A stretch of 32,582 nt of DNA from the NCBI GenBank assembly GCA_903836465.1, contig CAILRB010000052.1, positions 1 to 32,582 of the forward strand. Reading direction: 5' to 3'. The notes beneath the pieces were generated by a model, which did no database searches, was not told the DNA's origin, and saw nothing but the letters and a program-made list of their open reading frames with translations. Positions 19,853-32,406 of this stretch are shown here, piece by piece; the first letter of the stretch is position 1, and each line of letters opens with the position of its first letter. Source of the DNA: an uncultured Chlorobiaceae bacterium (GTDB lineage Bacteria > Bacteroidota > Chlorobiia > Chlorobiales > Chlorobiaceae). A program made the translations under genes and the position numbers.

Positions 19853-19872
19853 ATTATAACATTTTTAATGTT
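19853..19872 (-). promoter_or_regulatory. promoter -10 box and palindrome upstream of the prenol-kinase/Tol operon
   Basis: On the minus strand TATAAT (19858-19853) is overlapped by the perfect inverted repeat AACATT-TTT-AATGTT (19858-19872), which would lie in the -10/-35 spacer. The region is 70-90 bases before the ATG at 19783. A -35 box is not clear. The palindrome may be a repressor site. Confidence 0.4.
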
Positions 19873-19887
19873 TGTTTTAATAAAAGT

Positions 19888-20085
19888 TTAAGTGTAAGTT
19901 ATCTCAATTTTTCTTTTAATACTGAAGAAACTGTTCGCATTTTTCAATTTCGGATCAATGGCTGCATTCAATCCATATACCTGCCGTAACCGCCGCAGTT
20001 CTGAAAAACAGGCGCACCGCAACTCAACAGCGTCCTGCGGCAATGCAGAATCTTTGTCGAACTCCCTCAATGCAAGAGCAGGCAT
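19888..20085 (-). CDS. small hypothetical protein, doubtful
   Basis: This is a 65-residue frame with ATG at 20085 and AGGAG five bases before it, a good ribosome site for this window. The product is polar with an acidic N-terminal part and a basic end and has no recognisable family. It lies antisense to the 5' part of the candidate ilv leader ORF, and the leader's Ile/Val-rich stretch begins where this gene starts. The AGGAG may be a chance complement of that sequence. It could be a real short gene upstream of the Tol operon or a spurious frame. Confidence 0.35.
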   Translation of the reverse strand: MPALALREFDKDSALPQDAVELRCACFSELRRLRQVYGLNAAIDPKLKNANSFFSIKRKIEITYT

Positions 20086-20131
20086 CGTCACTCCTGTCGT
20101 CATCGTGCAGGCACCTGTTATTGTGCTCTGA
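20054..20131 (+). CDS. candidate ilv operon leader peptide
   Basis: This short ORF upstream of ilvD ends in IVTPVVIVQAPVIVL and TGA at 20129-20131, with 11 of the last 15 codons for Ile, Val or Leu. Such codon runs are the hallmark of attenuator leader peptides in branched-chain operons (compare enterobacterial ilvL and ivbL). The start could be TTG 20054 (25 residues) or ATG 19958 (57 residues); neither has a clear ribosome site. A hairpin and a T-rich stretch follow before ilvD. The sequence run is seen; the leader function is inferred. Confidence 0.5.
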   Translation: MSNSLNARAGIVTPVVIVQAPVIVL

Positions 20132-20139
20132 ATCGAGAA

Positions 20140-20231
20140 CCGCTCCCAAGTTCAATTTTCTCTTTCAAAAGAATCATCACAGTAACTTCGGGAACGGCGA
20201 CCCCGGGGCTCTTTATTTAATTGCTAAATTT
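20140..20231 (+). promoter_or_regulatory. candidate attenuator hairpin before ilvD
   Basis: CCGCTCCCAAGTT (20140-20152) can pair with AACTTCGGGAACGG (20184-20197), giving 12 pairs with one mismatch and one bulged C, around a 31-base loop. A GACCCCGGGGCTC block and T-rich runs (20211-20231) follow, ending 10 bases before ilvD. The stem begins nine bases after the stop codon of the leader ORF, so ribosome position on the Ile/Val codons could decide whether it forms. A compact terminator stem directly before the T run is not obvious. Confidence 0.42.
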
Positions 20232-20241
20232 TTTATCTGCA

Positions 20242-21939
20242 ATGAGATCTGATACCATAAAAAAAGGGTTTGAAAAAGCGCCTCACCGCAGCCTTCTGAA
20301 AGCCACGGGCTCTATCGTCTCAAACAACGACTTTCGCAAGCCCTTTATCGGAATCTGCAACTCCTATAATGAACTGATTCCCGGTCATTCCCACTTGCAG
20401 GAACTGGGAAAAATTGCAAAAGAGGAGGTTCGCAAGGCTGGAGGGGTTCCTTTTGAGTTTAATACCATCGGGGTTTGCGATGGTATCGCCATGGGCCATA
20501 TCGGTATGCGCTACTCTCTTGCCAGCCGTGAGCTGATTGCCGACAGTGTTGAAACTGTTGCAGAAGCGCACCGTCTTGACGGACTTGTTTGTATTCCGAA
20601 CTGCGACAAGATCACCCCGGGAATGATGATGGCCGCGCTTCGCATCAACATTCCGGTCATCTTTGTCTCCGGCGGCCCTATGAAAGCTGGCCGCACTCCT
20701 TCAGGAAAAACAGTTGACCTGATTTCAGTTTTTGAGGCTGTCGGGCAGTTCAGCGCCGGTACAATTGATGAAAACGAACTGGAATCGATAGAGGAGAATG
20801 CTTGCCCTGGATGTGGATCATGTTCTGGCATGTTCACGGCAAACTCCATGAACTGCCTCAGCGAAGCGCTTGGCTTTGCCCTGCCGGGCAACGGCACCAT
20901 TCTTGCAATCGACCCCCGTCGCAATGATCTGGTCAGGGAGGCTTCCCGCAGGATTGTCGATCTGGTCAACAAGAATATCAGACCGAGGGATATTTTGACA
21001 AGAAACGCACTGCTCAACGCCTTTGCCCTTGATTTTGCGATGGGAGGCAGCACCAACACTATTCTGCATACGCTGGCTATTGCCAACGAAGCTGAACTGG
21101 ACTTTGATTTTTCAGAACTTAACGCCCTTTCGGCCAAAACTCCCTATATCTGCAAGGTGAGCCCGGCTACCATGGCCGTTCATATCGAGGATGTCGATCG
21201 TGCCGGCGGCGTTTCTGCCATTCTTCATGAGCTGAGTAAAATCGAGGGTCTTCTTGACCTCTCTGCGTTGACTGTTACCGGCAAAACTCTTGGTGAAAAC
21301 ATTGCTGACGCAGAGATCACGGACAGCGCTGTTATCAGAAGCATTGAAGACCCCTACTCTGCAACGGGCGGCCTTGCTGTTCTGTATGGCAATCTGGCCC
21401 CGCAGGGAGCTGTTGTCAAAACCGGAGCGGTCAGCCCGGAGATGATGAACCATACCGGCCCGGCAAAGATCTATGACTGTCAGGATGATGCTATCAAAGG
21501 CATTATGGAAGGCGATGTCAAAAGTGGCGATGTCGTGGTTATTCGTTATGAAGGCCCAAAAGGCGGCCCGGGAATGCCTGAAATGCTCTCCCCCACCAGC
21601 GCCATCATGGGACGCGGTCTTGGTGATTCTGTGGCACTCATCACTGACGGGCGCTTCTCCGGCGGCTCAAGAGGAGCCTGCATCGGGCACGTCTCTCCCG
21701 AAGCAGCCGATCACGGACCGATTGCCGCACTGATAAACGGCGATATGATTACCATCAATATTGTTGAGAGGAGCCTCTCGGTCAACCTGTCAGATGAGAT
21801 CATCAATGCAAGACTCGCATCGCTTAAACCGTTTGAACCGAAAATAAAAAAAGGCTATCTGGCCAGGTATTCACAAATGGTCACTTCGGCCAATACCGGC
21901 GCAATCCTGAAAAGCCCTGTTTCCTGTGAACCTAAATAA
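20242..21939 (+). CDS. ilvD: dihydroxy-acid dehydratase
   Basis: This 565-residue iron-sulfur enzyme dehydrates 2,3-dihydroxy-isovalerate and -3-methylvalerate to the 2-keto acids of valine and isoleucine. Cluster cysteines appear in [18 protein letters not shown] and in [20 protein letters not shown]. Other family blocks are [16 protein letters not shown]-like (here [19 protein letters not shown]), [28 protein letters not shown] and the C-terminal [23 protein letters not shown] 20242 is used over an upstream TTG. It opens an eight-gene branched-chain operon and is preceded by a candidate leader peptide and hairpin. Confidence 0.97.
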
Positions 21940-21946
21940 GCCAGCT

Positions 21947-23668
21947 ATGCATTCATCAGGCCAAACACTCAATGGCTCAGAAATATTTTTTGAATGTCTG
22001 CGACGTGAAAATGTTGAATATATTTTCGGGTATCCGGGAGGATCCCTGCTGAAAGTTTACGAGACACTTCATGAGGTCAAAGACATACACCATATCCTGG
22101 TTCGTCATGAACAGGGCGCAACCCACATGGCTGAAGGATATGCCCGTGCTACCGGAAAGCCCGGTGTTGTTCTTGTCACTTCCGGTCCCGGCGCAACCAA
22201 CACGGTCACCGGAATTGCCAACGCCTACATGGACTCCTCGCCGATGGTTGTCTTTACCGGACAGGTTCCAAGCTCACTGATAGGCAATGACGCTTTTCAG
22301 GAGGCTGATATTGTTGGAATCACCCGTCCGATAACCAAGCACAATTTTCTGGTCAAGGATGTCAGAGAGCTTGCCATAACCATCCGCAAGGCCTTTTTCC
22401 TTGCAACAACCGGCAGACCCGGACCGGTTCTGGTCGATATGCCGAAAGATATCCTGAATTCGTCATGCGTCTTTGACTTTCCTGAGACTATTGACATTCG
22501 GGGATTCAAACCAACCTTCAAATGTCATATCAACCAGGTTGAAAGGGCCGCGCAGAAAATAGCGAAAGCAAAACGACCCCTCCTCTACATCGGCGGCGGA
22601 GTCATCAGCGCTGAAGCAGCCGAAGAGCTGCGAACACTGGCGATACAGCAAAATATACCGGTCACTATGACCTTGCAGGGACTTGGAGCTTTCCCCGGCA
22701 ACCATCCCCTCAGCATGGGCATGCTTGGGATGCACGGCACCTACTGGGCCAATCAGGCGGTCAATAAATGCGATCTCCTTATTGCTGTCGGTGCGCGCTT
22801 TGATGACCGGGTCACCGGCAAAGTCGACACCTTTGCCCCGCAGGCATACAAGATCCATAACGACATTGATCCGACCAATGTCGATAAAAATATCAAGGTC
22901 GATCTGCCAATTGTCGGCGATGCAAAAAATTTTCTGGCGACACTTCTTGAGGTAATGCCGGAAAAGAAAGAAAACCGTGAACCATGGCTTGCCGAAATTA
23001 ACGTATGGCGCGAACAGTGCCCGCTGACCTACAGCAGCGAAGACGACTTACTGAGAACTGAATTTGTGATCGATGAGGTCTCCCGCCAAACCATCGGCAA
23101 TGCCGTTGTGGTCACCGACGTCGGACAGCACCAGATGTGGACATCACAGTTTTATACCTTTATCAATCCCCGATCCATCATCACCAGTGGAGGACTCGGC
23201 ACCATGGGCTTTGGCCTGCCCGCCGCTATCGGCGCAGCCTTCGGCATCAAGGATCGACCGGTTGTGCTCTTTTGCGGAGACGGCGGGTTTATGATGAATG
23301 TTCAGGAGCTTGTTACGGCGGTTCACAACAAAATGCCGGTCAAAATATTCCTGATCAACAACAGTTTTCTCGGCATGGTTCGTCAGTGGCAGGAACTCTT
23401 CCACCAGGAAAAGTACTCCTTCACCGATCTGGGCGACAGCAACCCCGACTTTGTGAAGGTTGCCGAAGCCTTCGGGTGCAAGGCGCTCAAGGCTGAAAAC
23501 CCAGAGAGCGCACGGCAAGCCATTACAGAGGCTCTGGCGTACAACGATGGCCCAATTCTTGTTGATTTCAGGGTTGTCAAAAAAGATATGGTCTTCCCGA
23601 TGGTGCCTGCCGGAGGCTCTATTTCCGACATGCTCCTTGCCCGGTTAAACCCAAAAACAATGGTGTGA
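21947..23668 (+). CDS. ilvB: acetolactate synthase, large (catalytic) subunit
   Basis: This 573-residue thiamine-diphosphate enzyme joins two pyruvates to acetolactate, or pyruvate and 2-ketobutyrate to acetohydroxybutyrate. The N-terminal ThDP domain has the catalytic glutamate in HEQGATHMAEGYARATGKPG. A central domain is followed by the C-terminal ThDP-binding motif CGDGGFMMNVQELVTA ... NNSFLGMVRQWQELF. The start is set at ATG 21947, seven bases after the ilvD stop; a GTG at 21926 would overlap ilvD. ilvN follows immediately. The catalytic and regulatory subunits form the holoenzyme. Confidence 0.97.
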   Translation: MHSSGQTLNGSEIFFECLRRENVEYIFGYPGGSLLKVYETLHEVKDIHHILVRHEQGATHMAEGYARATGKPGVVLVTSGPGATNTVTGIANAYMDSSPMVVFTGQVPSSLIGNDAFQEADIVGITRPITKHNFLVKDVRELAITIRKAFFLATTGRPGPVLVDMPKDILNSSCVFDFPETIDIRGFKPTFKCHINQVERAAQKIAKAKRPLLYIGGGVISAEAAEELRTLAIQQNIPVTMTLQGLGAFPGNHPLSMGMLGMHGTYWANQAVNKCDLLIAVGARFDDRVTGKVDTFAPQAYKIHNDIDPTNVDKNIKVDLPIVGDAKNFLATLLEVMPEKKENREPWLAEINVWREQCPLTYSSEDDLLRTEFVIDEVSRQTIGNAVVVTDVGQHQMWTSQFYTFINPRSIITSGGLGTMGFGLPAAIGAAFGIKDRPVVLFCGDGGFMMNVQELVTAVHNKMPVKIFLINNSFLGMVRQWQELFHQEKYSFTDLGDSNPDFVKVAEAFGCKALKAENPESARQAITEALAYNDGPILVDFRVVKKDMVFPMVPAGGSISDMLLARLNPKTMV

Positions 23669-23676
23669 ACGAATCC

Positions 23677-24153
23677 ATGAAACACATAATATCCGTTCTG
23701 GTTGAAAACAAGTTCGGCTCCCTGAACCGGGTTGCCGCCATGTTCAGCGCACGAGGGTTCAACCTCGAAAGCATCTCCATCGGTGAAACCGAGGACACGG
23801 AAATCTCGCGTATGACCATTGTCACGAGGGGTGAAGACCAGATCATCAGCCAGGTGCTCAAGCAACTGAACCGGCTGGTTGATACCATCAAGGTGACCGA
23901 TCTGACCCGGCAGCCGCATGTTGAACGGGAGCTGCTCCTGATGACCCTGAAGCTCAGCAAGACAGTACAGCATGAGATTTTTGAACTGATCACTGTTTTT
24001 AAAGGAAAAGTCGTGGATATAAAACAAAAATCCATTACTATTGAGGTCATCGGTTCTCCGGACAAGATCAATACAACCATTGATATCTTCAGGCCCTACG
24101 GCATAAAGGAACTTGCCCGTTCGGGTGCGGTAGCAATACACCGGGGAGAATGA
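23677..24153 (+). CDS. ilvN: acetolactate synthase, small (regulatory) subunit
   Basis: This 158-residue regulatory subunit activates the large subunit and gives feedback inhibition by valine. The N-terminal ACT domain is HIISVLVENKFGSLNRVAAM followed by FSARGFNLESISIG, containing the ligand-site loop. A second ACT-like half ends in IDIFRPYGIKELARSGAVAI. ATG 23677 begins 8 bases after the ilvB stop. Confidence 0.95.
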   Translation: MKHIISVLVENKFGSLNRVAAMFSARGFNLESISIGETEDTEISRMTIVTRGEDQIISQVLKQLNRLVDTIKVTDLTRQPHVERELLLMTLKLSKTVQHEIFELITVFKGKVVDIKQKSITIEVIGSPDKINTTIDIFRPYGIKELARSGAVAIHRGE

Positions 24154-24195
24154 CACCATTTTAACGCTCTTATTTAATTCAAAACCATTGTAGCG

Positions 24196-25188
24196 ATGAA
24201 CGTTTATTATGAGAAGGATGCCGATCTCAGCTATTTGCAAGGCAAAAATATCGCCGTTCTCGGTTACGGCAGCCAGGGCCATGCACATGCCCTGAACCTC
24301 AAGGAGAGTGGACTGAACGTCCGCGTCGGCCTTCGCCCTGAAAGCGCATCCTGCGCCAAAGCACGGGAAGCCGGACTGGAGGTCACCACCGTTGCTGAAG
24401 CAACCAAATGGGCCGATATTGTGATGGTGCTTCTGCCCGACCAGAACCAGAAAGCCGTCTACGACGCAGAAATTGCTCCGAACCTTGTGGCTGGCAATAC
24501 CCTTGCCTTTGGCCATGGATTTAATATTCATTACAAACAGATTATTCCGGCAGAGACCATCAACGTCATCATGATTGCCCCGAAAAGCCCAGGCCATCTT
24601 GTGCGCCGCACCTTTACGCAAGGCAATGGTGTCCCCTGTCTTATCGCTGTTCACCAGGACTACACTGGCGATGCCAAACAGCAGGCGCTCGCATGGGCGA
24701 AGGCTCTTGGCGGCACGAAAGCGGGTGTCATTGAAACCACCATCAAGAACGAAACTGAAACTGATCTATTCGGTGAGCAGGCTGTTCTTTGTGGCGGTTC
24801 TGCCGAGCTGATCAAGGCGGGATTTGAAACGCTGGTTGAAGCAGGGTACCCTGAAGAGCTTGCCTACTTTGAATGTATGCACGAGTTAAAACTGATTGTT
24901 GATCTCTATTATGAAGGCGGCCTCTCAAGAATGAACTACTCCGTAAGCGATACGGCTGAATACGGCGGCATGACCCGTGGCCCGCGCCTTATCACGCCAG
25001 CAGTCAAGGCTGAGATGAAAAAAATCCTTGAAGAGGTTCAGGACGGCCGTTTTGCCAAAGAGTTTATTGATGAATGTAACGGCGGGTATAAAAACCTGAA
25101 CAAGCTCAGGGCTGAAAACAGCAACCATGCCATTGAAAAAGTAGGCGCCAGGCTCCGCGACATGATGAGCTGGCTGATAAAGAAATAA
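24196..25188 (+). CDS. ilvC: ketol-acid reductoisomerase (class I)
   Basis: This 330-residue Mg-dependent enzyme isomerises and reduces acetolactate or acetohydroxybutyrate with NAD(P)H. The Rossmann motif is [19 protein letters not shown], with the cofactor-specificity loop [10 protein letters not shown]. The C-terminal knotted domain has the metal-site stretches [17 protein letters not shown] and [20 protein letters not shown]. Length is that of the short class I form. An arginine and serines in the specificity loop suggest NADPH use, as is usual; this was not tested. Confidence 0.97.
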
Positions 25189-25206
25189 TTCATTCAAAAG
25201 AGAAGA

Positions 25207-26265
25207 ATGTACAAGATCGTCTCAATACCGGGTGACGGTATCGGCCCGGAAGTAGTTGCAGGAGCTGTTGCTGTACTGCAGCAGCTCTCAAAAAAGCACG
25301 GCTTTGACGTTGTCATTGAGGAGCACCCGTTCGGCGGCGCCTCTTATGACCTGCACGGTGAAATGCTCACCCGGGCAACACTTGAAGCATGCAGGAATTG
25401 CGATGCGGTGCTGCTTGGAGCCGTTGGCGGCCCGAAATGGGAAAGCCTGCCGCACGAACACAAGCCGGAGGCAGCACTGCTCAGAATCCGCAAAGAGCTT
25501 GAACTCTTTGCCAACCTCAGACCGGCAAAAGTCTATGACGCCCTTCTTGATGCCTCCTCGCTCAAGCCTGAGGTGGTGCGTGGCACCGATTTCCTTGTCT
25601 TCAGGGAACTCACCGGCGGTATCTATTTCGGCCAGCCACGCGGCTTCGATGCAACGAAAGGCTGGAACACCATGGTCTATGAAGGCTATGAAGTTGAACG
25701 TATTGCCCGTCTCGCCTTTGAAGCAGCCCGCAAACGCAAAGGCAAGGTGATCTCGATCGACAAGGCTAACGTTCTTGAAGTCTCACAGTTCTGGCGTAAT
25801 GTGGTGCATGAAGTACATAAGGATTACGCTGATGTGGAGCTGAGTGACATGTATGTGGACAACGCCGCAATGCAAATCGTCCGCAACCCACGACAGTTTG
25901 ATGTCATTGTCACGGGCAACCTTTTTGGTGATATTCTGAGCGACATTGCCGGTATGATTACCGGAAGTCTCGGTATGCTCCCGTCGGCAAGCATCGGCAC
26001 ACAACACGCCCTCTACGAGCCAATTCACGGAAGTGCCCCTGATATTGCCGGACAGAACAAGGCAAACCCGATTGCCACTATCGCATCGGTTGCCATGATG
26101 TTCGAGCACAGTTTCCAGAAACCGGAGATTGCAAGAGAGATTGAACAGGCAATTGAGGCGACCCTTGCGTCGGGATTACGAACCGCCGACATCGCCAATC
26201 CAGGAGCGCCTGTCATTTCGACCACAGAGATGACCGAGGCAATTGTCAGGCATCTTGGTGAATGA
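25207..26265 (+). CDS. leuB: 3-isopropylmalate dehydrogenase
   Basis: This 352-residue NAD-dependent decarboxylating dehydrogenase makes 2-ketoisocaproate for leucine. In the citramalate route it turns 3-methylmalate into 2-ketobutyrate. Family blocks are IPGDGIGPEVVAGAV near the start, GAVGGPKW, RELTGGIYFG, SIDKANVLEVSQFWRN and DNAAMQIVRNPRQFDVIVTG, followed by NLFGDILSDIAGM. With leuCD and cimA in the same operon it probably serves both pathways. The gene begins 18 bases after ilvC. Confidence 0.96.
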   Translation: MYKIVSIPGDGIGPEVVAGAVAVLQQLSKKHGFDVVIEEHPFGGASYDLHGEMLTRATLEACRNCDAVLLGAVGGPKWESLPHEHKPEAALLRIRKELELFANLRPAKVYDALLDASSLKPEVVRGTDFLVFRELTGGIYFGQPRGFDATKGWNTMVYEGYEVERIARLAFEAARKRKGKVISIDKANVLEVSQFWRNVVHEVHKDYADVELSDMYVDNAAMQIVRNPRQFDVIVTGNLFGDILSDIAGMITGSLGMLPSASIGTQHALYEPIHGSAPDIAGQNKANPIATIASVAMMFEHSFQKPEIAREIEQAIEATLASGLRTADIANPGAPVISTTEMTEAIVRHLGE

Positions 26266-26289
26266 TATAACAACACTACTACTGAACCC

Positions 26290-27585
26290 ATGGCACAAAC
26301 CATAACCCAGAAAATTCTTGCAAAGGCCTCAAGCAGAACCTTTGTCGACGTTGGAGAGAGCGTGTGGCTGAATGTCGATATTCTCCTTACCCATGATGTC
26401 TGCGGCCCGCCTACCTTTGATATCTTCAAAGAGGAGTTCGGCCCCGACGCAAAAGTATGGGATCCCTCAAAAGTTGTCGTTCTGCCAGACCACTATATTT
26501 TCACGGCCAACGAGCACGCCCATCGCAATATTGACCTCCTGAGGCAATTTGCAAAAGAGCAAGGACTGCCGCACTACTATGATGTCGGTTCTGACCGATA
26601 CAAAGGTGTCTGTCACGTCGCCCTTGCCGAAGAGGGTTTTAATCTTCCCGGTACCGTGCTTTTCGGAACCGACTCACACACCTGTACTTCGGGTGCCTTC
26701 GGCATGTTCGGCACCGGAATCGGCAACACTGACGCCGCATTCATTCTTGGTACCGGGAAACTCTGGGAAAAAGTCCCTGAATCGATCAAGTTCACCTTTG
26801 AGGGAGAGATGCCTGTCTGGCTGACCGCAAAAGATCTCATTCTGCAGATTCTCGGCGATATCACGACCGACGGCGCAACCTATCGGGCAATGGAGTTTGA
26901 TGGAGAAGCGATTTTTTCACTTCCCATGGAAGAGAGAATGACGCTGACCAACATGGCTATCGAAGCCGGAGGCATGAACGGTATTATTGCCGCTGACAAT
27001 ATCGCTGAAGCCTATGTGAAGGCAAGAAGCAACAAGCCCTACGAACTCTTCCAGAGCGATCCGGACGCAGAGTATCACAGCAAGTACCACTACAATGTTC
27101 GTGACCTTGAGCCCGTTGTCGCACAACCGCACAGCCCCGATAATCGCGCTACGGTAAGGAGTGTCGCAGGCACAAAAATCACCAAATCCTATATCGGCTC
27201 CTGCACCGGCGGCAAACTGACTGATTTTATGATGGCGGCAAAAATCCTGAAAGGACAAACGGTTTCGGTGACCACAAACATTGTTCCCGCGACGGTTCAG
27301 GTTGCCCGCAGCCTTGAAACTGAACAGTATCAGGGTGTGACGCTTAAAAAGATTTTTGAGGATGCCGGATGCAGCATTGCACTCCCTTCATGCGCAGCAT
27401 GTCTGGGCGGCCCTGCCGATACCGTCGGACGCTCGGTTGACAACGATGTCGTCGTCTCTACCACAAACCGTAATTTTCCCGGAAGAATGGGCAGCAAACA
27501 TGCGGGAGTCTACCTTGCCTCGCCGCTCACCGCAGCCGCATCAGCAATTACGGGCAAACTCACCGATCCGAGAGATTTTCTCTGA
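26290..27585 (+). CDS. leuC: 3-isopropylmalate/citramalate dehydratase, large subunit
   Basis: This is a 431-residue aconitase-family [4Fe-4S] enzyme subunit that isomerises isopropylmalate, and also dehydrates or hydrates citramalate and citraconate. Cluster and substrate motifs are VLFGTDSHTCTSGAFGMFGT, SYIGSCTGGKLTDFMMAAK and PSCAACLGGPAD, with the three cysteine ligands visible. The length of about 430 residues is that of the short, archaeal-type LeuC group rather than the 466-residue enterobacterial form, so a dual-substrate role is plausible. leuD follows 28 bases downstream. Confidence 0.93.
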   Translation: MAQTITQKILAKASSRTFVDVGESVWLNVDILLTHDVCGPPTFDIFKEEFGPDAKVWDPSKVVVLPDHYIFTANEHAHRNIDLLRQFAKEQGLPHYYDVGSDRYKGVCHVALAEEGFNLPGTVLFGTDSHTCTSGAFGMFGTGIGNTDAAFILGTGKLWEKVPESIKFTFEGEMPVWLTAKDLILQILGDITTDGATYRAMEFDGEAIFSLPMEERMTLTNMAIEAGGMNGIIAADNIAEAYVKARSNKPYELFQSDPDAEYHSKYHYNVRDLEPVVAQPHSPDNRATVRSVAGTKITKSYIGSCTGGKLTDFMMAAKILKGQTVSVTTNIVPATVQVARSLETEQYQGVTLKKIFEDAGCSIALPSCAACLGGPADTVGRSVDNDVVVSTTNRNFPGRMGSKHAGVYLASPLTAAASAITGKLTDPRDFL

Positions 27586-27612
27586 TCGCACCAGTACAGG
27601 AGAATAAAGACT

Positions 27613-28179
27613 ATGGAAAAAGTTATTCAGGGTAAAGCATACGTTTTAGGGAAGAATATTGATACCGATCAGATTATTCCGGCTGAACATCTGGTTTACA
27701 GCCTCTCCGATCCGGATGAGGTCGTTTTGTACGGTAAATATGCCCTCTCAGGAGTTCCTCCCGAGCAGGGTGGGCTTCCGGAAGGAAATATCCCTTTTAT
27801 TGCCGATGGTGAAGTTCGCTCAGCATTCACCATCATTATTGCAGGTCCGAACTTTGGATGCGGATCATCAAGGGAACATGCGCCCTTCGCGTTAAAAGTG
27901 GCAGGCGTACAAGCCATTATTGCAGAATCCTACGCGAGAATTTTTTACCGCAACTGTGTTGATGGCGGATTTGCAATTCCTTACGAAACTGCTGAACCAC
28001 TCAACCAGATTATCAAGACTGGCGATGAGCTGAAAATTGACGTGGCGGCAAATACCATTGAAAATTTGACCAGCAAGATCATCTACAAGCTCAATCCCCT
28101 TGGAAGTGTCTTCAACATCGTCGAAGCGGGAGGAATTTTTGCCTATGCCAGACAGGAAAATTTAATGGCACAACGCTGA
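27613..28179 (+). CDS. leuD: 3-isopropylmalate/citramalate dehydratase, small subunit
   Basis: This 188-residue swivel-domain partner of LeuC carries the substrate-recognition loop. Family motifs are NIDTDQIIPAEHL near the start and the strongly conserved NFGCGSSREHAPFALKVAG, with YARIFYRNCVDGG following. AGGAG eight to nine bases before ATG 27613 gives a good ribosome site. The stop at 28179 is four bases before the cimA start, indicating close coupling. Confidence 0.95.
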   Translation: MEKVIQGKAYVLGKNIDTDQIIPAEHLVYSLSDPDEVVLYGKYALSGVPPEQGGLPEGNIPFIADGEVRSAFTIIIAGPNFGCGSSREHAPFALKVAGVQAIIAESYARIFYRNCVDGGFAIPYETAEPLNQIIKTGDELKIDVAANTIENLTSKIIYKLNPLGSVFNIVEAGGIFAYARQENLMAQR

Positions 28180-28182
28180 TTT

Positions 28183-29775
28183 ATGACTTCAATTTTAAAG
28201 ACGATAGAACTTTACGACACGACCCTGCGTGATGGCACACAGGGAGAGCATATCAACCTTTCGGTACAGGACAAGCTTCTTATTGCCCGAAAGCTTGATG
28301 AGTTCGGTATGGACTATATTGAAGGAGGATGGCCAAGCAGCAACCCGAAAGATGAGGAGTTTTTCATAAAGGCCCGGCAGCTTGATTTCAAACATGCAAA
28401 ACTCACCTCGTTCGGTTCGACCGCCCGTTTTGTCGCCAAGGTTGAAACCGATCCAAACTTGCTCGGGCTGCTTCATTCCGAAACTCCGGTCATCACTATC
28501 TTCGGAAAAACATGGAAAGCCCACTCCATGAAAAGTCTTGGCATTTCAGATCAAGAGAATGCCGATTTGATTTACCGCTCCGTTGCCTTCCTCAAGCAAG
28601 AGGGACGAGAGGTCTTTTTTGATGCAGAACATTTTTTCGACGGGTATAAAGATGACCGCGAATTTGCCCTGACCATGCTGCGCGCCGCAGCGGAAGGAGG
28701 CGCCTCAAGAATTGTGCTGTGCGACACCAACGGAGGCTCACTGCCCCATGAAGTAGCCGACATTGTGGCACAGGTACTGACTGCCACCGGTCTCCCTGTA
28801 GGCATTCACAGCCACAACGATGGCGATCTGGCCATCGCGAACTCAATCGCAGCCGTCATGGCCGGTGCTACCCATATCCAGGGAACCATCAACGGTATCG
28901 GTGAACGATGCGGCAACGCCAACCTTATCAGCATTATTCCCAATATTATGCTGAAACTGCAAGGCTCATTCACCTTTGTGCAGCATCTCAATCAACTGAC
29001 CTCACTCTCGAAGTTTGTCTATGAGATTCTGAATATGCCATCGAATACCAGAGCGCCTTTTGTCGGGAAATCCGCATTTGCCCACAAAGGCGGTATCCAT
29101 GTCAGCGCCGTCATGAAAGAGAGCTCTCTCTACGAGCATATCGACCCGAAGCTTGTCGGGAACCATCAACGGGTTCTGGTTTCAGAGCTTGCCGGCCAGA
29201 GCAACATCCGCTACAAAGCGCAGGAGCTTGGCATAGTTCTTCCTGAAAAAAGCGATCTTTATAAAAATATTGTCCACCATATCAAGGAACTCGAGCACGA
29301 AGGATACCAGTTTGACGGAGCCGAAGCCTCTTTTGAGCTACTCCTGCACAAGGAGCTTGGCAACTTCAAGCCATTCTTTGAAGTGCTTGAAACCAAGGTA
29401 CATATCGAGTCGAGCAAGAATGCCAACAATGTTGACCAGGCCGTGCTCAAGGTAAAGGTTGGCGAGGAGATTGAACATATTGCTGCCGACGGTGACGGCC
29501 CGGTCAATGCCCTCGACAAGGCTCTCCGCAAAGCCTTGCTCCACTTTTATCCGGAGATCAAGAGCATCAAGCTGGTTGACTATAAAGTGCGTGTTCTTGA
29601 AGAGAAACGGGGAACCAGCGCCAAAGTGCGGGTACTCATAGAATCAGGCAACGGCCGCTCTACCTGGGGCACCGTGGGAGTCTCGACGAACATCATCGAA
29701 GCAAGTCTTCACGCGCTTGAGGACAGCATGAACTACCACCTCTTTACCCTGAAAGCTGCGGTGCCGGTTATTTGA
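28183..29775 (+). CDS. cimA: (R)-citramalate synthase
   Basis: This 530-residue acyl-CoA-condensing enzyme of the isopropylmalate synthase family makes citramalate from pyruvate and acetyl-CoA, the first step of threonine-independent isoleucine synthesis. The HMGL-like catalytic barrel starts with LYDTTLRDGTQGEHINLSV, continues with DYIEGGWPSSNPKDEEFF and the metal-site GIHSHNDGDLA, and has NGIGERCGNANL. A C-terminal LeuA-type regulatory domain occupies about residues 390-525. The GQGEHIN and EGGWPSSNPKD wording is characteristic of CimA, not LeuA. It is last in the operon and provides the entry of the branch leading through LeuC, LeuD and LeuB. Confidence 0.93.
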   Translation: MTSILKTIELYDTTLRDGTQGEHINLSVQDKLLIARKLDEFGMDYIEGGWPSSNPKDEEFFIKARQLDFKHAKLTSFGSTARFVAKVETDPNLLGLLHSETPVITIFGKTWKAHSMKSLGISDQENADLIYRSVAFLKQEGREVFFDAEHFFDGYKDDREFALTMLRAAAEGGASRIVLCDTNGGSLPHEVADIVAQVLTATGLPVGIHSHNDGDLAIANSIAAVMAGATHIQGTINGIGERCGNANLISIIPNIMLKLQGSFTFVQHLNQLTSLSKFVYEILNMPSNTRAPFVGKSAFAHKGGIHVSAVMKESSLYEHIDPKLVGNHQRVLVSELAGQSNIRYKAQELGIVLPEKSDLYKNIVHHIKELEHEGYQFDGAEASFELLLHKELGNFKPFFEVLETKVHIESSKNANNVDQAVLKVKVGEEIEHIAADGDGPVNALDKALRKALLHFYPEIKSIKLVDYKVRVLEEKRGTSAKVRVLIESGNGRSTWGTVGVSTNIIEASLHALEDSMNYHLFTLKAAVPVI

Positions 29776-29856: not shown

Positions 29857-32406
29857 CTATTGCGCAACACACCAGCTTCCATCGACATCGCCTCTCAGGA
29901 TGCCGACCAGGTCTACGGTGGTGTCGGCAGTCACGTTGACTGATATTGAGTGTGCAAGATCGGGCAGGAGATCGGTCTTCTCAACAAACGCCCACTCCGG
30001 AGTCGGCGCAGTAAGCCCTACCACATGTTTGAGAATACCAATGGCATCATTCAGATCCACTTCGTTAGTCTTGTCAAAATCGGCAGCGATCTGCTGATAG
30101 CCATTCAGTGTCGTCAGTCCGACAATACTCTTGAGAATAGCGATGGCGTCAAGCAGATCGACCGAACCTTTAGCTGCTGTCCCAACCGTCAATGCTGGCG
30201 TAAGTGTTGTAACGCCCGCTGAATGGCCTCGAAGCATAACTGAGCCTGTATCTCCCGTTTGAACATCTGTTTCCAGTACCACCCCCTTGATCGGGGTGTC
30301 ATTATTCCAATATTTTGTGTTGACAACTATGTCATGTAGAGAAGTCGTCGTTACCGTTGTAAAGTCGTAGGTATTGCTTCCCGAAGAACTGTTGCCAGAC
30401 AAATCCTTGACGCTGCTGGAGGCGAACGTAACAAAATAGTGTGTGTTGTGCGACAGATCTGTCGTAGGGTTGATCGTCAGCGTACTGCCTGACACCGTCA
30501 GGTTTGTGCTTGTCGCTACATCGTAACTTTCAACCACACCGCCAGTTGCTGAAATACTATGGATTTCAATCAAACCCGTCCCTTTCTGAATTGCTTCGCT
30601 GAAGGTCAGCACTATATTGCTGCCAACATCAACGGCTGTGGCTTCGTCAGCAGGGGTAAAGGTCAGCACTGTTGGTGGTGTGATATCCGAAATCATATCA
30701 AGGCTACCATCACTATTGAAACGTGCAAGAGCAAAGTCCGCACTGCTGATGTTGTCGGATGCCCAGGAAGCCCCCGCCACGACGATCTTGCCATCAGCCT
30801 GCATCACAACACTATAGCCAAAGTCACCACCCCCGAAATCTGTTGTTACCTTGCCGTCACCGAAAAAGGTTTTATCAAGAGTGCCGTCACTGTTGTAGCG
30901 CGCAACGGCGAAATCAAAACTTCTCAACCCTGCCACGATGATCTTGCCATCAGGTTGGATCACAACACTGAAGCCATAGTCATCACCGCCGAAATCAGTG
31001 ACTACCTTACCATCATCGGAAAACGTTGTATCAAGGGTGCCGTCAGCATTGTAACGCGCAAGGACGAAATCACCGCTATAATTGAAAGCGAACCCTGCTA
31101 CGATGATTTTGCCATCAGGTTGCATCACCACACTGTAGCCATGGTCATCACCTTCACCGAAATCCGTGGTCACTTTCCCGTCGCCGGAAAAAGTCGTATC
31201 GAGACTGCCGTCACTGTTATAACGCGCAAGGGCGAAATCATAGCTGCTGTACTTGACGAAAGTGGCCCCTGAAACTAGAATCTTGCCATCGGCTTGCATC
31301 ACCACACTATAGCCACCGTCATTACCGCCAAAATCCGTAGTCACCTTCCCGTCACCGGAAAAAGTCGTATCGAGACTGCCGTCACTGTTATAACGCGCAA
31401 GGGCGAAATCGTTTCCACTATCGTTGGACTCAGACCCTGCGACAAGAATCTTGCCATCGCCTTGCATCACCACACAATGGCCACTGCCAAAATTTGTAGT
31501 CGCCTTGCCATCGTCAGAAAAATTTGTATCAAGAGTACCATCAGTATTGTAACGCGCAAGGGCGATATCACTGCTGCTACCGTTGTAAGTAGACCCTACC
31601 ACAAGAATCTTGCCATCGGCTTGCATCACCACACTATAGCCACCGTCATAACCTCCGAAATCCGTGATCACCTTGCCATCGCCGAAGAAAGTTGTATCAA
31701 GGCTACCGTCAGTATTGTAGCGTGCAAGGGCAAAATCATCACCGCTGATGTTGTCGGATGCATAGGAAGTCCCCGCCACAACGATCTTACCATCAGCCTG
31801 CATAACAACACTGCGGCCTCCACTACCGCCACCAAAATCCGTAGTCAATTTGCCATACGATGAAAAGGAATCTTCTCCAAAACCACTTGACATATCGAAA
31901 TATATCCCCGCAGGATCGCCTGAACTATCACCCTGAACGCGGCCTGAATAAACCTCATACCTTATGAGCTGCCAATGATCAGGTTGAGCGTCATTATTGG
32001 TATCAATCAGGCTGAGCGGACCATCGATAAAATCTGTTCCCCATGATCCTTCAAGTCTATCGGGTTGATTATCGTTGTTCGTGTCCTTCAACACTCCGTG
32101 AAAGTAAATGTCATTGTTTAGCCCATCCTTGAGCGTTGTGAAAAACGTAGCGATCACATTGGTTGAATCCTTCACCCACATAGGCTTCACTGCAACCTCA
32201 TTGCCTTGCTGGTCAGTCATTACAAAGGCATCCGGCATAGTATCTGAATCAGGGCCATCCGCAATCAGCGCTCCTGTTATGATAACATCGACACTCCAGC
32301 ACTCCGGACCTGCTTTCGAGATATCTGTATCCAGAAACGTGAGTACACCAGTGTCGGTGGTAACCATGATTCCCAAACCATCAAGCCAGTTACAGCTTGC
32401 ATTCAA
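29857..32406 (-). CDS. large repeat protein: seven-blade delta-60 propeller, Ig-like and dockerin-like domains
   Basis: The frame gives up to 849 residues of an extracellular-type protein. The N-terminal 180 residues contain calcium-loop-like DTNNDNQPD and DTNNDAQPD. Residues 180-570 hold seven delta-60 units of 50-58 residues, each with VVMQADGKIxVAG and ALARYNSDGSLDTTF. The first and last units are split halves, which is how propellers close. An Ig-like domain (Big_5 type, from PPTVLTFTPADEATAVDVGS) follows at about 575-690. A dockerin-like repeat with FDKTNEVDLNDAIGILKHVV is near 750-800, and the end is GDVDGSWC. No signal peptide is seen. The only start in frame is TTG 32406, and the frame continues to a stop at 32458-32460, so the true N-terminus is probably lost by a frameshift. 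Function is unknown; binding or adhesion is likely. Confidence 0.8.
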   Translation of the reverse strand: MNASCNWLDGLGIMVTTDTGVLTFLDTDISKAGPECWSVDVIITGALIADGPDSDTMPDAFVMTDQQGNEVAVKPMWVKDSTNVIATFFTTLKDGLNNDIYFHGVLKDTNNDNQPDRLEGSWGTDFIDGPLSLIDTNNDAQPDHWQLIRYEVYSGRVQGDSSGDPAGIYFDMSSGFGEDSFSSYGKLTTDFGGGSGGRSVVMQADGKIVVAGTSYASDNISGDDFALARYNTDGSLDTTFFGDGKVITDFGGYDGGYSVVMQADGKILVVGSTYNGSSSDIALARYNTDGTLDTNFSDDGKATTNFGSGHCVVMQGDGKILVAGSESNDSGNDFALARYNSDGSLDTTFSGDGKVTTDFGGNDGGYSVVMQADGKILVSGATFVKYSSYDFALARYNSDGSLDTTFSGDGKVTTDFGEGDDHGYSVVMQPDGKIIVAGFAFNYSGDFVLARYNADGTLDTTFSDDGKVVTDFGGDDYGFSVVIQPDGKIIVAGLRSFDFAVARYNSDGTLDKTFFGDGKVTTDFGGGDFGYSVVMQADGKIVVAGASWASDNISSADFALARFNSDGSLDMISDITPPTVLTFTPADEATAVDVGSNIVLTFSEAIQKGTGLIEIHSISATGGVVESYDVATSTNLTVSGSTLTINPTTDLSHNTHYFVTFASSSVKDLSGNSSSGSNTYDFTTVTTTSLHDIVVNTKYWNNDTPIKGVVLETDVQTGDTGSVMLRGHSAGVTTLTPALTVGTAAKGSVDLLDAIAILKSIVGLTTLNGYQQIAADFDKTNEVDLNDAIGILKHVVGLTAPTPEWAFVEKTDLLPDLAHSISVNVTADTTVDLVGILRGDVDGSWCVAQ
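30690..31870 (-). repeat. tandem coding repeats (delta-60 units, about 150-175 bp)
   Basis: Seven tandem units of about 50-58 codons make up the propeller part of the protein. Two neighbouring units share an identical 56-base stretch (31184-31239 and 31355-31410), offset by exactly 171 bases or 57 codons, which points to recent duplication or gene conversion. Other units diverge in wording and length. The repetition also produces long open frames on the opposite strand, which are not genes. Confidence 0.85.

Follow-up and report, generated by a model that had tools for sequence, protein, structure and literature searches.

How do green sulfur bacteria adjust the synthesis of isoleucine, valine and leucine to their supply? 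The question is raised by the region before ilvD in the window, the whole stretch of 32,582 nucleotides analysed here, which comes from an uncultured Chlorobiaceae bacterium. In enterobacteria, ilvL precedes the branched-chain operon ilvGMEDA and acts as an attenuator with a run of Ile, Val and Leu codons. A preliminary description of the window had proposed the same logic of leader-peptide attenuation before ilvD. The sequence holds a short open reading frame (ORF) with a codon run, a covarying antiterminator stem (2:3), an alternative hairpin (3:4) followed by a T-run, and a conserved spacing from stop codon to stem; the codons match the operon, both structures share segment 3, and the proposal is supported. 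A ribosome-mediated transcription attenuator very probably controls the whole Ile/Val/Leu operon, and green sulfur bacteria probably sense a shortage of these amino acids through the leader and an RNA switch.

The operon, the leader and its expression signals

The element precedes a tightly packed operon, delimited by NCBIfam matches and gene coordinates.

20242–29775, + strand: operon ilvD-ilvB-ilvN-ilvC-leuB-leuC-leuD-cimA

All eight genes are on the + strand, no more than ~45 bases apart, a spacing that suggests one transcript. The operon serves the synthesis of Ile (by the citramalate route), Val and Leu, in agreement with the leader codons. Upstream of the element lies a divergent gene that is TIGR00297-like, below the curated cut-off. 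Past the operon, the − strand carries a large ORF (29857–32406), presumably for a delta-60-like repeat protein, in which the pattern DGKI(V/L)VAG...ARYNSDGSLDTTF recurs many times.

For comparison, the regions upstream of ilvD were collected from 60 Chlorobiaceae genomes of two genera, and the element could be aligned in 57; the other three loci (L030, L111 and L115) lack the whole element. The two features of the leader in the window are as follows.

19958–20131, + strand: predicted leader peptide ORF, 57 codons, ATG to TGA, putatively translated
20084–20128, + strand: regulatory codons IVTPVVIVQAPVIVL, 10 of 15 for Ile, Val or Leu

The ORF lies where it was first described, and its translation is MAAFNPYTCRNRRSSEKQAHRNSTASCGNAESLSNSLNARAGIVTPVVIVQAPVIVL followed by the stop. 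The codon run also stands, although it had been counted as 11 of 15 codons and the real figure is 10. Among the 1133 stop-ended stretches of 15 residues in the six frames of the window, the leader tail ranks first in Ile/Val/Leu content. The run is conserved in the aligned upstream regions of Chlorobiaceae, the comparison that the preliminary description had called for: the last 17 leader codons of the relatives encode 29% Val, 15% Ile and 12% Leu (56% together), Ser, Ala and Thr are commonest in the rest of the leader, and no stretch on the opposite strand of these regions has more than 7 of 15. Shortened tails have gaps of 30 or 33 bases, so the reading frame is kept. The Pro and Gln codons within the run had been regarded as a weak point; they are present, but as an objection they lose their force, since Pro, Gln, Ala, Ser and Thr codons are mixed into the run in relatives too.

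The ORF could instead encode a small functional protein, with the RNA structure being a separate matter. Its start (ATG as chosen in 56 of 57 loci) and its length (exactly 57 amino acids in many loci) are well conserved, as such a protein would have it, but the middle part is poorly conserved, the tail keeps its Ile/Val/Leu character alone, and pN/pS is ~0.76 overall, indicating weak coding selection. We consider a functional protein very improbable and treat the ORF as a leader.

A promoter-like block precedes the leader; it was read from the sequences by eye, and a consensus scan did not flag it.

19872–19900, + strand: probable promoter, −35 TTGTTT (19872–19877), 17-nt spacer, −10 TAAGTT (19895–19900)

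The block is conserved in relatives and takes the form TTGACT-17-TAAATT or TTGACT-17-TAACTT at the equivalent place in the second genus. Transcription would then begin near 19907, with ~50 bases preceding the leader. A start 3′ of 20131 had been named as incompatible with attenuation; the conserved block instead points to one 5′ of the ORF. On the − strand, positions 19853–19880 hold a further promoter-like site (TTAAAA-16-TATAAT, preceded by TG) in a conserved block that overlaps the proposed ilvD promoter, and this site may serve the divergent TIGR00297-like gene. The leader had also been faulted for lacking a clear ribosome site. The absence is real, but it can be explained: an SD-like tetramer was found before the leader start or ilvD in none of the 57 loci, so a missing ribosome site is usual in the group.

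The antiterminator stem and the alternative hairpin

Two segments downstream of the leader stop, both assigned by covariation, form the antiterminator.

20140–20152, + strand: segment 2, 5′ arm of the antiterminator
20184–20197, + strand: segment 3, 3′ arm of the antiterminator; 20186–20192 doubles as the 5′ arm of the terminator

The 12-pair stem first described here was recovered at exactly the same coordinates and pairs (CCG-CGG, UCCC-GGGA and AAGUU-AACUU). In the window, 8 spacer bases separate it from the leader stop; across the Chlorobiaceae, the distance from stop to segment 2 is 7–9 bases in 49 of 57 loci and 8–9 in 47. Folded alone, the window segment is no more stable than shuffled sequences (z −1.1); thus a single sequence is no proof of the stem, and the case is a comparative one. 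Over 56 distinct Chlorobiaceae sequences, 93.0% of cells in the 2:3 stem are paired with 24 double-sided changes, a covariation reached by 0 of 500 shuffles, and the stem is therefore conserved across the family, as the preliminary description had asked of aligned ilvD upstream regions. Sliding the partner strand by one base lowers the pairing to 51–55% or less, and this control outweighs the shuffle test because related sequences inflate the latter. For instance, AAGUU/AACUU in the window's group corresponds to AAGUC/GGCUU elsewhere, and CCG/CGG to CCU/AGG in the second genus. Run on the full alignment, RNAalifold gave only 7 pairs, partly in a shifted register, and the named 2:3 structure was therefore counted directly. 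In two loci of the second genus (L121 and L127), segment 2 has GCC for CCC and segment 3 has AGC for GGG, a compensatory switch to G-C within the antiterminator.

A T-box, a riboswitch or a protein-binding leader is an extremely improbable account of this structure. T-boxes have been reported before hisS in Chlorobia (PMC2965389), but such a device would leave both the Ile/Val/Leu run and the stop-to-stem spacing unexplained. Rfam searches gave no match in the window, none credible in the element at a relaxed threshold and none in 20 relatives; without an Rfam model for the element, many genome annotations probably miss its leader ORFs.

The attenuator would end transcription at a second hairpin, which competes for segment 3.

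20186–20208, + strand: putative terminator hairpin 3:4, CTTCGGG / CCCGGGG with a 9-nt loop, −8.2 kcal/mol
20209–20222, + strand: T-rich run after the terminator hairpin, assigned with the T-run count of relatives

In 3:4, CUUCGGG of segment 3 pairs with segment 4 (20186–20192 with 20202–20208). The 'GC block' noticed earlier before ilvD is the 3′ arm of this hairpin, and the T-rich run noticed with it is confirmed. Antiterminator and terminator are mutually exclusive through segment 3, and with the U-tract that follows 3:4, terminator activity is predicted. In the Chlorobiaceae alignment, 78% of cells of the 3:4 helix are paired; a search for two-sided covariation there found none, segment 3 being almost without variation, so that the argument for 3:4 draws on the T-run and the shared segment in place of covariation. 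The 12 positions after 3:4 hold a mean of 7.1 T in relatives vs 3.1 in the regional background. The hairpin itself is short (mean −8.7 kcal/mol) and often no better than shuffled sequence. Three loci with weak leaders (L117, L118 and L133) retain the hairpin with just 2–3 T of 12. Sensor and terminator thus seem to decay in step, although the three may represent a single event; the three loci that lost the element altogether are a further sign of linked decay.

The same sensor could have a translational output, the 3:4 hairpin hindering initiation at ilvD while transcription is not ended. The absence of an SD-like motif before ilvD is compatible with this, as is the arrangement in family f28 outside the Chlorobiaceae, where no T-run follows 3:4, which lies no more than ~16 nt from the assumed ilvD start; in Chlorobiaceae, by contrast, the hairpin ends 24–44 nt before the ilvD start and the T-run comes next. 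For this family we regard a translational output as unlikely and retain transcription attenuation.

The predicted switch and comparable systems

In the proposed attenuator, RNA polymerase would start near 19907 and a ribosome would translate the leader. When charged Ile, Val or Leu tRNA is scarce, the ribosome would stall in the final codon run and leave segment 2 free; 2:3 would then pair, the terminator would be blocked and the operon would be transcribed. With a good supply, the ribosome at the stop codon would cover the start of segment 2, so that 3:4 could form and terminate transcription.

The preliminary description had proposed folding the RNA for competing stems; both 2:3 and 3:4 are found, and the balance between them shifts with the modelled position of the ribosome. 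Mean values for 2:3 and 3:4 are 0.45 and 0.06 with the ribosome stalled, 0.25 and 0.32 with the ribosome at the stop, and 0.13 and 0.44 when the footprint is extended by 3 nt; the element of the window itself gives, in the same order, 0.74/0.01, 0.38/0.35 and 0.14/0.80. A ribosome modelled as stalled nine codons upstream of the stop leaves 3:4 unfavoured in 51 of 57 loci. At the stop, 33 of the 57 favour it, rising to 44 with the footprint 3 bases longer; there the ribosome reaches no further than the first bases of segment 2, and in the model the switch is thus partial and footprint-dependent. In the absence of a ribosome, 2:3 is predicted to prevail at most loci, which would make read-through the default for an untranslated leader.

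In the trp attenuator of E. coli, a 1:2 protector hairpin forms. The Chlorobiaceae element would differ, with antitermination as the predicted default and no more than hints of such a stem. A candidate 1:2 stem (GGAUCGG with CCGGUCC) occurs in part of the genus, where own and swapped pairing give −10.35 vs −9.53 kcal/mol, weak support for a protector. The second genus (L120–L140 except L133) carries its stop codon inside a small hairpin, e.g. CCUGA-CCCG-UCAGG, adjoining segment 2, which is a candidate for a 1:2-like element.

Like enterobacterial ilvL and its ilvGMEDA operon, the element combines an Ile/Val/Leu run, an antiterminator and a terminator that share one segment, and a branched-chain operon. 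Its leader is longer than ilvL (57 amino acids), differs in sequence, has the run at the very end and lacks a clear 1:2 protector stem; the element precedes ilvD, in an operon that also takes in leuBCD and cimA. Proteobacteria and Actinobacteria are known to have leader-peptide attenuators (PMC1262725), and Firmicutes have some as well (PMC2965389). In the ilvB leaders of Actinobacteria, an ilv operon is likewise preceded by a terminator and by a short ORF that contains Ile/Val/Leu codons (PMC1262725), a type to which the leader of C. glutamicum ilvBNC reportedly belongs (PMC11857589). Those leaders precede ilvB and their codon runs overlap the terminator, whereas here the terminator begins ~55 nt past the stop codon. 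WRC-18-2, an ilvD motif confined to Veillonella and rated a weak riboswitch candidate, is also a structured RNA before ilvD, in some cases with a terminator, according to the part of its description consulted (PMC8632094); that part mentions no leader ORF, whereas the Chlorobiaceae element has one.

The preliminary description knew of no such element in green sulfur bacteria, and likewise no account of an ilv leader from Chlorobi turned up in the literature searched here. Lopatovskaya et al. 2010 (doi 10.1134/S0026893310010164, cited in PMC4833913), reportedly a comparative survey of attenuators in bacteria, may contain a prediction. Leader-peptide attenuation itself is already known, and what we hypothesize is a phylum-wide family with changing output. 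The present element extends leader-peptide control of branched-chain synthesis to green sulfur bacteria, and apparently across a phylum for which we found little of the kind described; it is defined well enough for reporter assays.

Distribution within and beyond Chlorobiaceae

A covariance model was built from the Chlorobiaceae element, including the last leader codons. In the window's genome it gives one strong match, before ilvD; the next hits have E values of about 1 or worse, and the search found no further credible copies there. It matches 78 of 86 Chlorobiaceae, once per genome and before ilvD, and none of 12 other members of the order. The eight negatives comprise four assemblies without ilvD, one truncated ilvD and three true losses. 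Among 20 matched loci outside the model, at least 14 carry, at the corresponding position, a tail with at least 8 of 15 Ile/Val/Leu, and another three have a shorter one; since the model includes the last codons, these loci do not give a fully independent view of the codon run.

The element thus occurs in green sulfur bacteria as first described, but similar systems elsewhere in the phylum speak against a restriction to them. Both ilvD loci of family f2, which we infer to be Chloroherpetonaceae, have an Ile/Val/Leu-rich ORF, the 2:3 stem and a TTCGGG segment 3. In other Bacteroidota families, 29 of 33 ilvD loci have an ORF with at least 10 of 15 Ile/Val/Leu, each at a frequency of at most 2% in shuffles. 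Most of these ORFs are followed by GGTCAATCCC within ~6–13 bases of the stop and later by GGGGTTGACC. The GGTCAATCCC/GGGGTTGACC stem was aligned in 31 loci (27 from other Bacteroidota, two from Chloroherpetonaceae and two from other groups, leaving out L202 with a different stem and L179 as a near duplicate); in this alignment 82.7% of the stem's cells pair, double-sided changes number 39, and none of 500 shuffles scores as high. The C-rich stretch after GGTCAATCCC...GGGGTTGACC in L178–L197 and L199–L207 of other Bacteroidota could compete for pairing.

The distant relatives have the 3:4 alternative and usually lack the T-run (2.9 T of 12). This absence, together with the f28 hairpin close to the ilvD start, suggests that their output may be translational; ilvD start codons in these relatives were placed by homology, and the distances are approximate. 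Families f10 and f28 are, at a guess, Ignavibacteria- and Rhodothermia-like. Homology of the distant elements with that of Chlorobiaceae, by way of Chloroherpetonaceae, is plausible. An ancient ilvD attenuator family in much of Bacteroidota, with one sensor, differing outputs and antitermination as the ribosome-free default, is a tentative reading to which we give somewhat less than even chances. Its sensor would be an Ile/Val/Leu leader with a stop a few bases before a conserved 2:3 stem; as output, green sulfur bacteria would use an intrinsic terminator, and some other lineages a hairpin close to the start codon. Provided that the distant elements are indeed homologous, one could follow directly how an RNA sensor changes its output between translation and transcription.

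Ile/Val/Leu-rich ORFs also precede ilvD at eight loci of further, mostly uncultured lineages, several of other phyla (L032, L033, L035, L036, L040, L046, L104 and L109). In L046, L104 and L109, strong classic terminators follow the ORF, and these three are probably independent attenuators.
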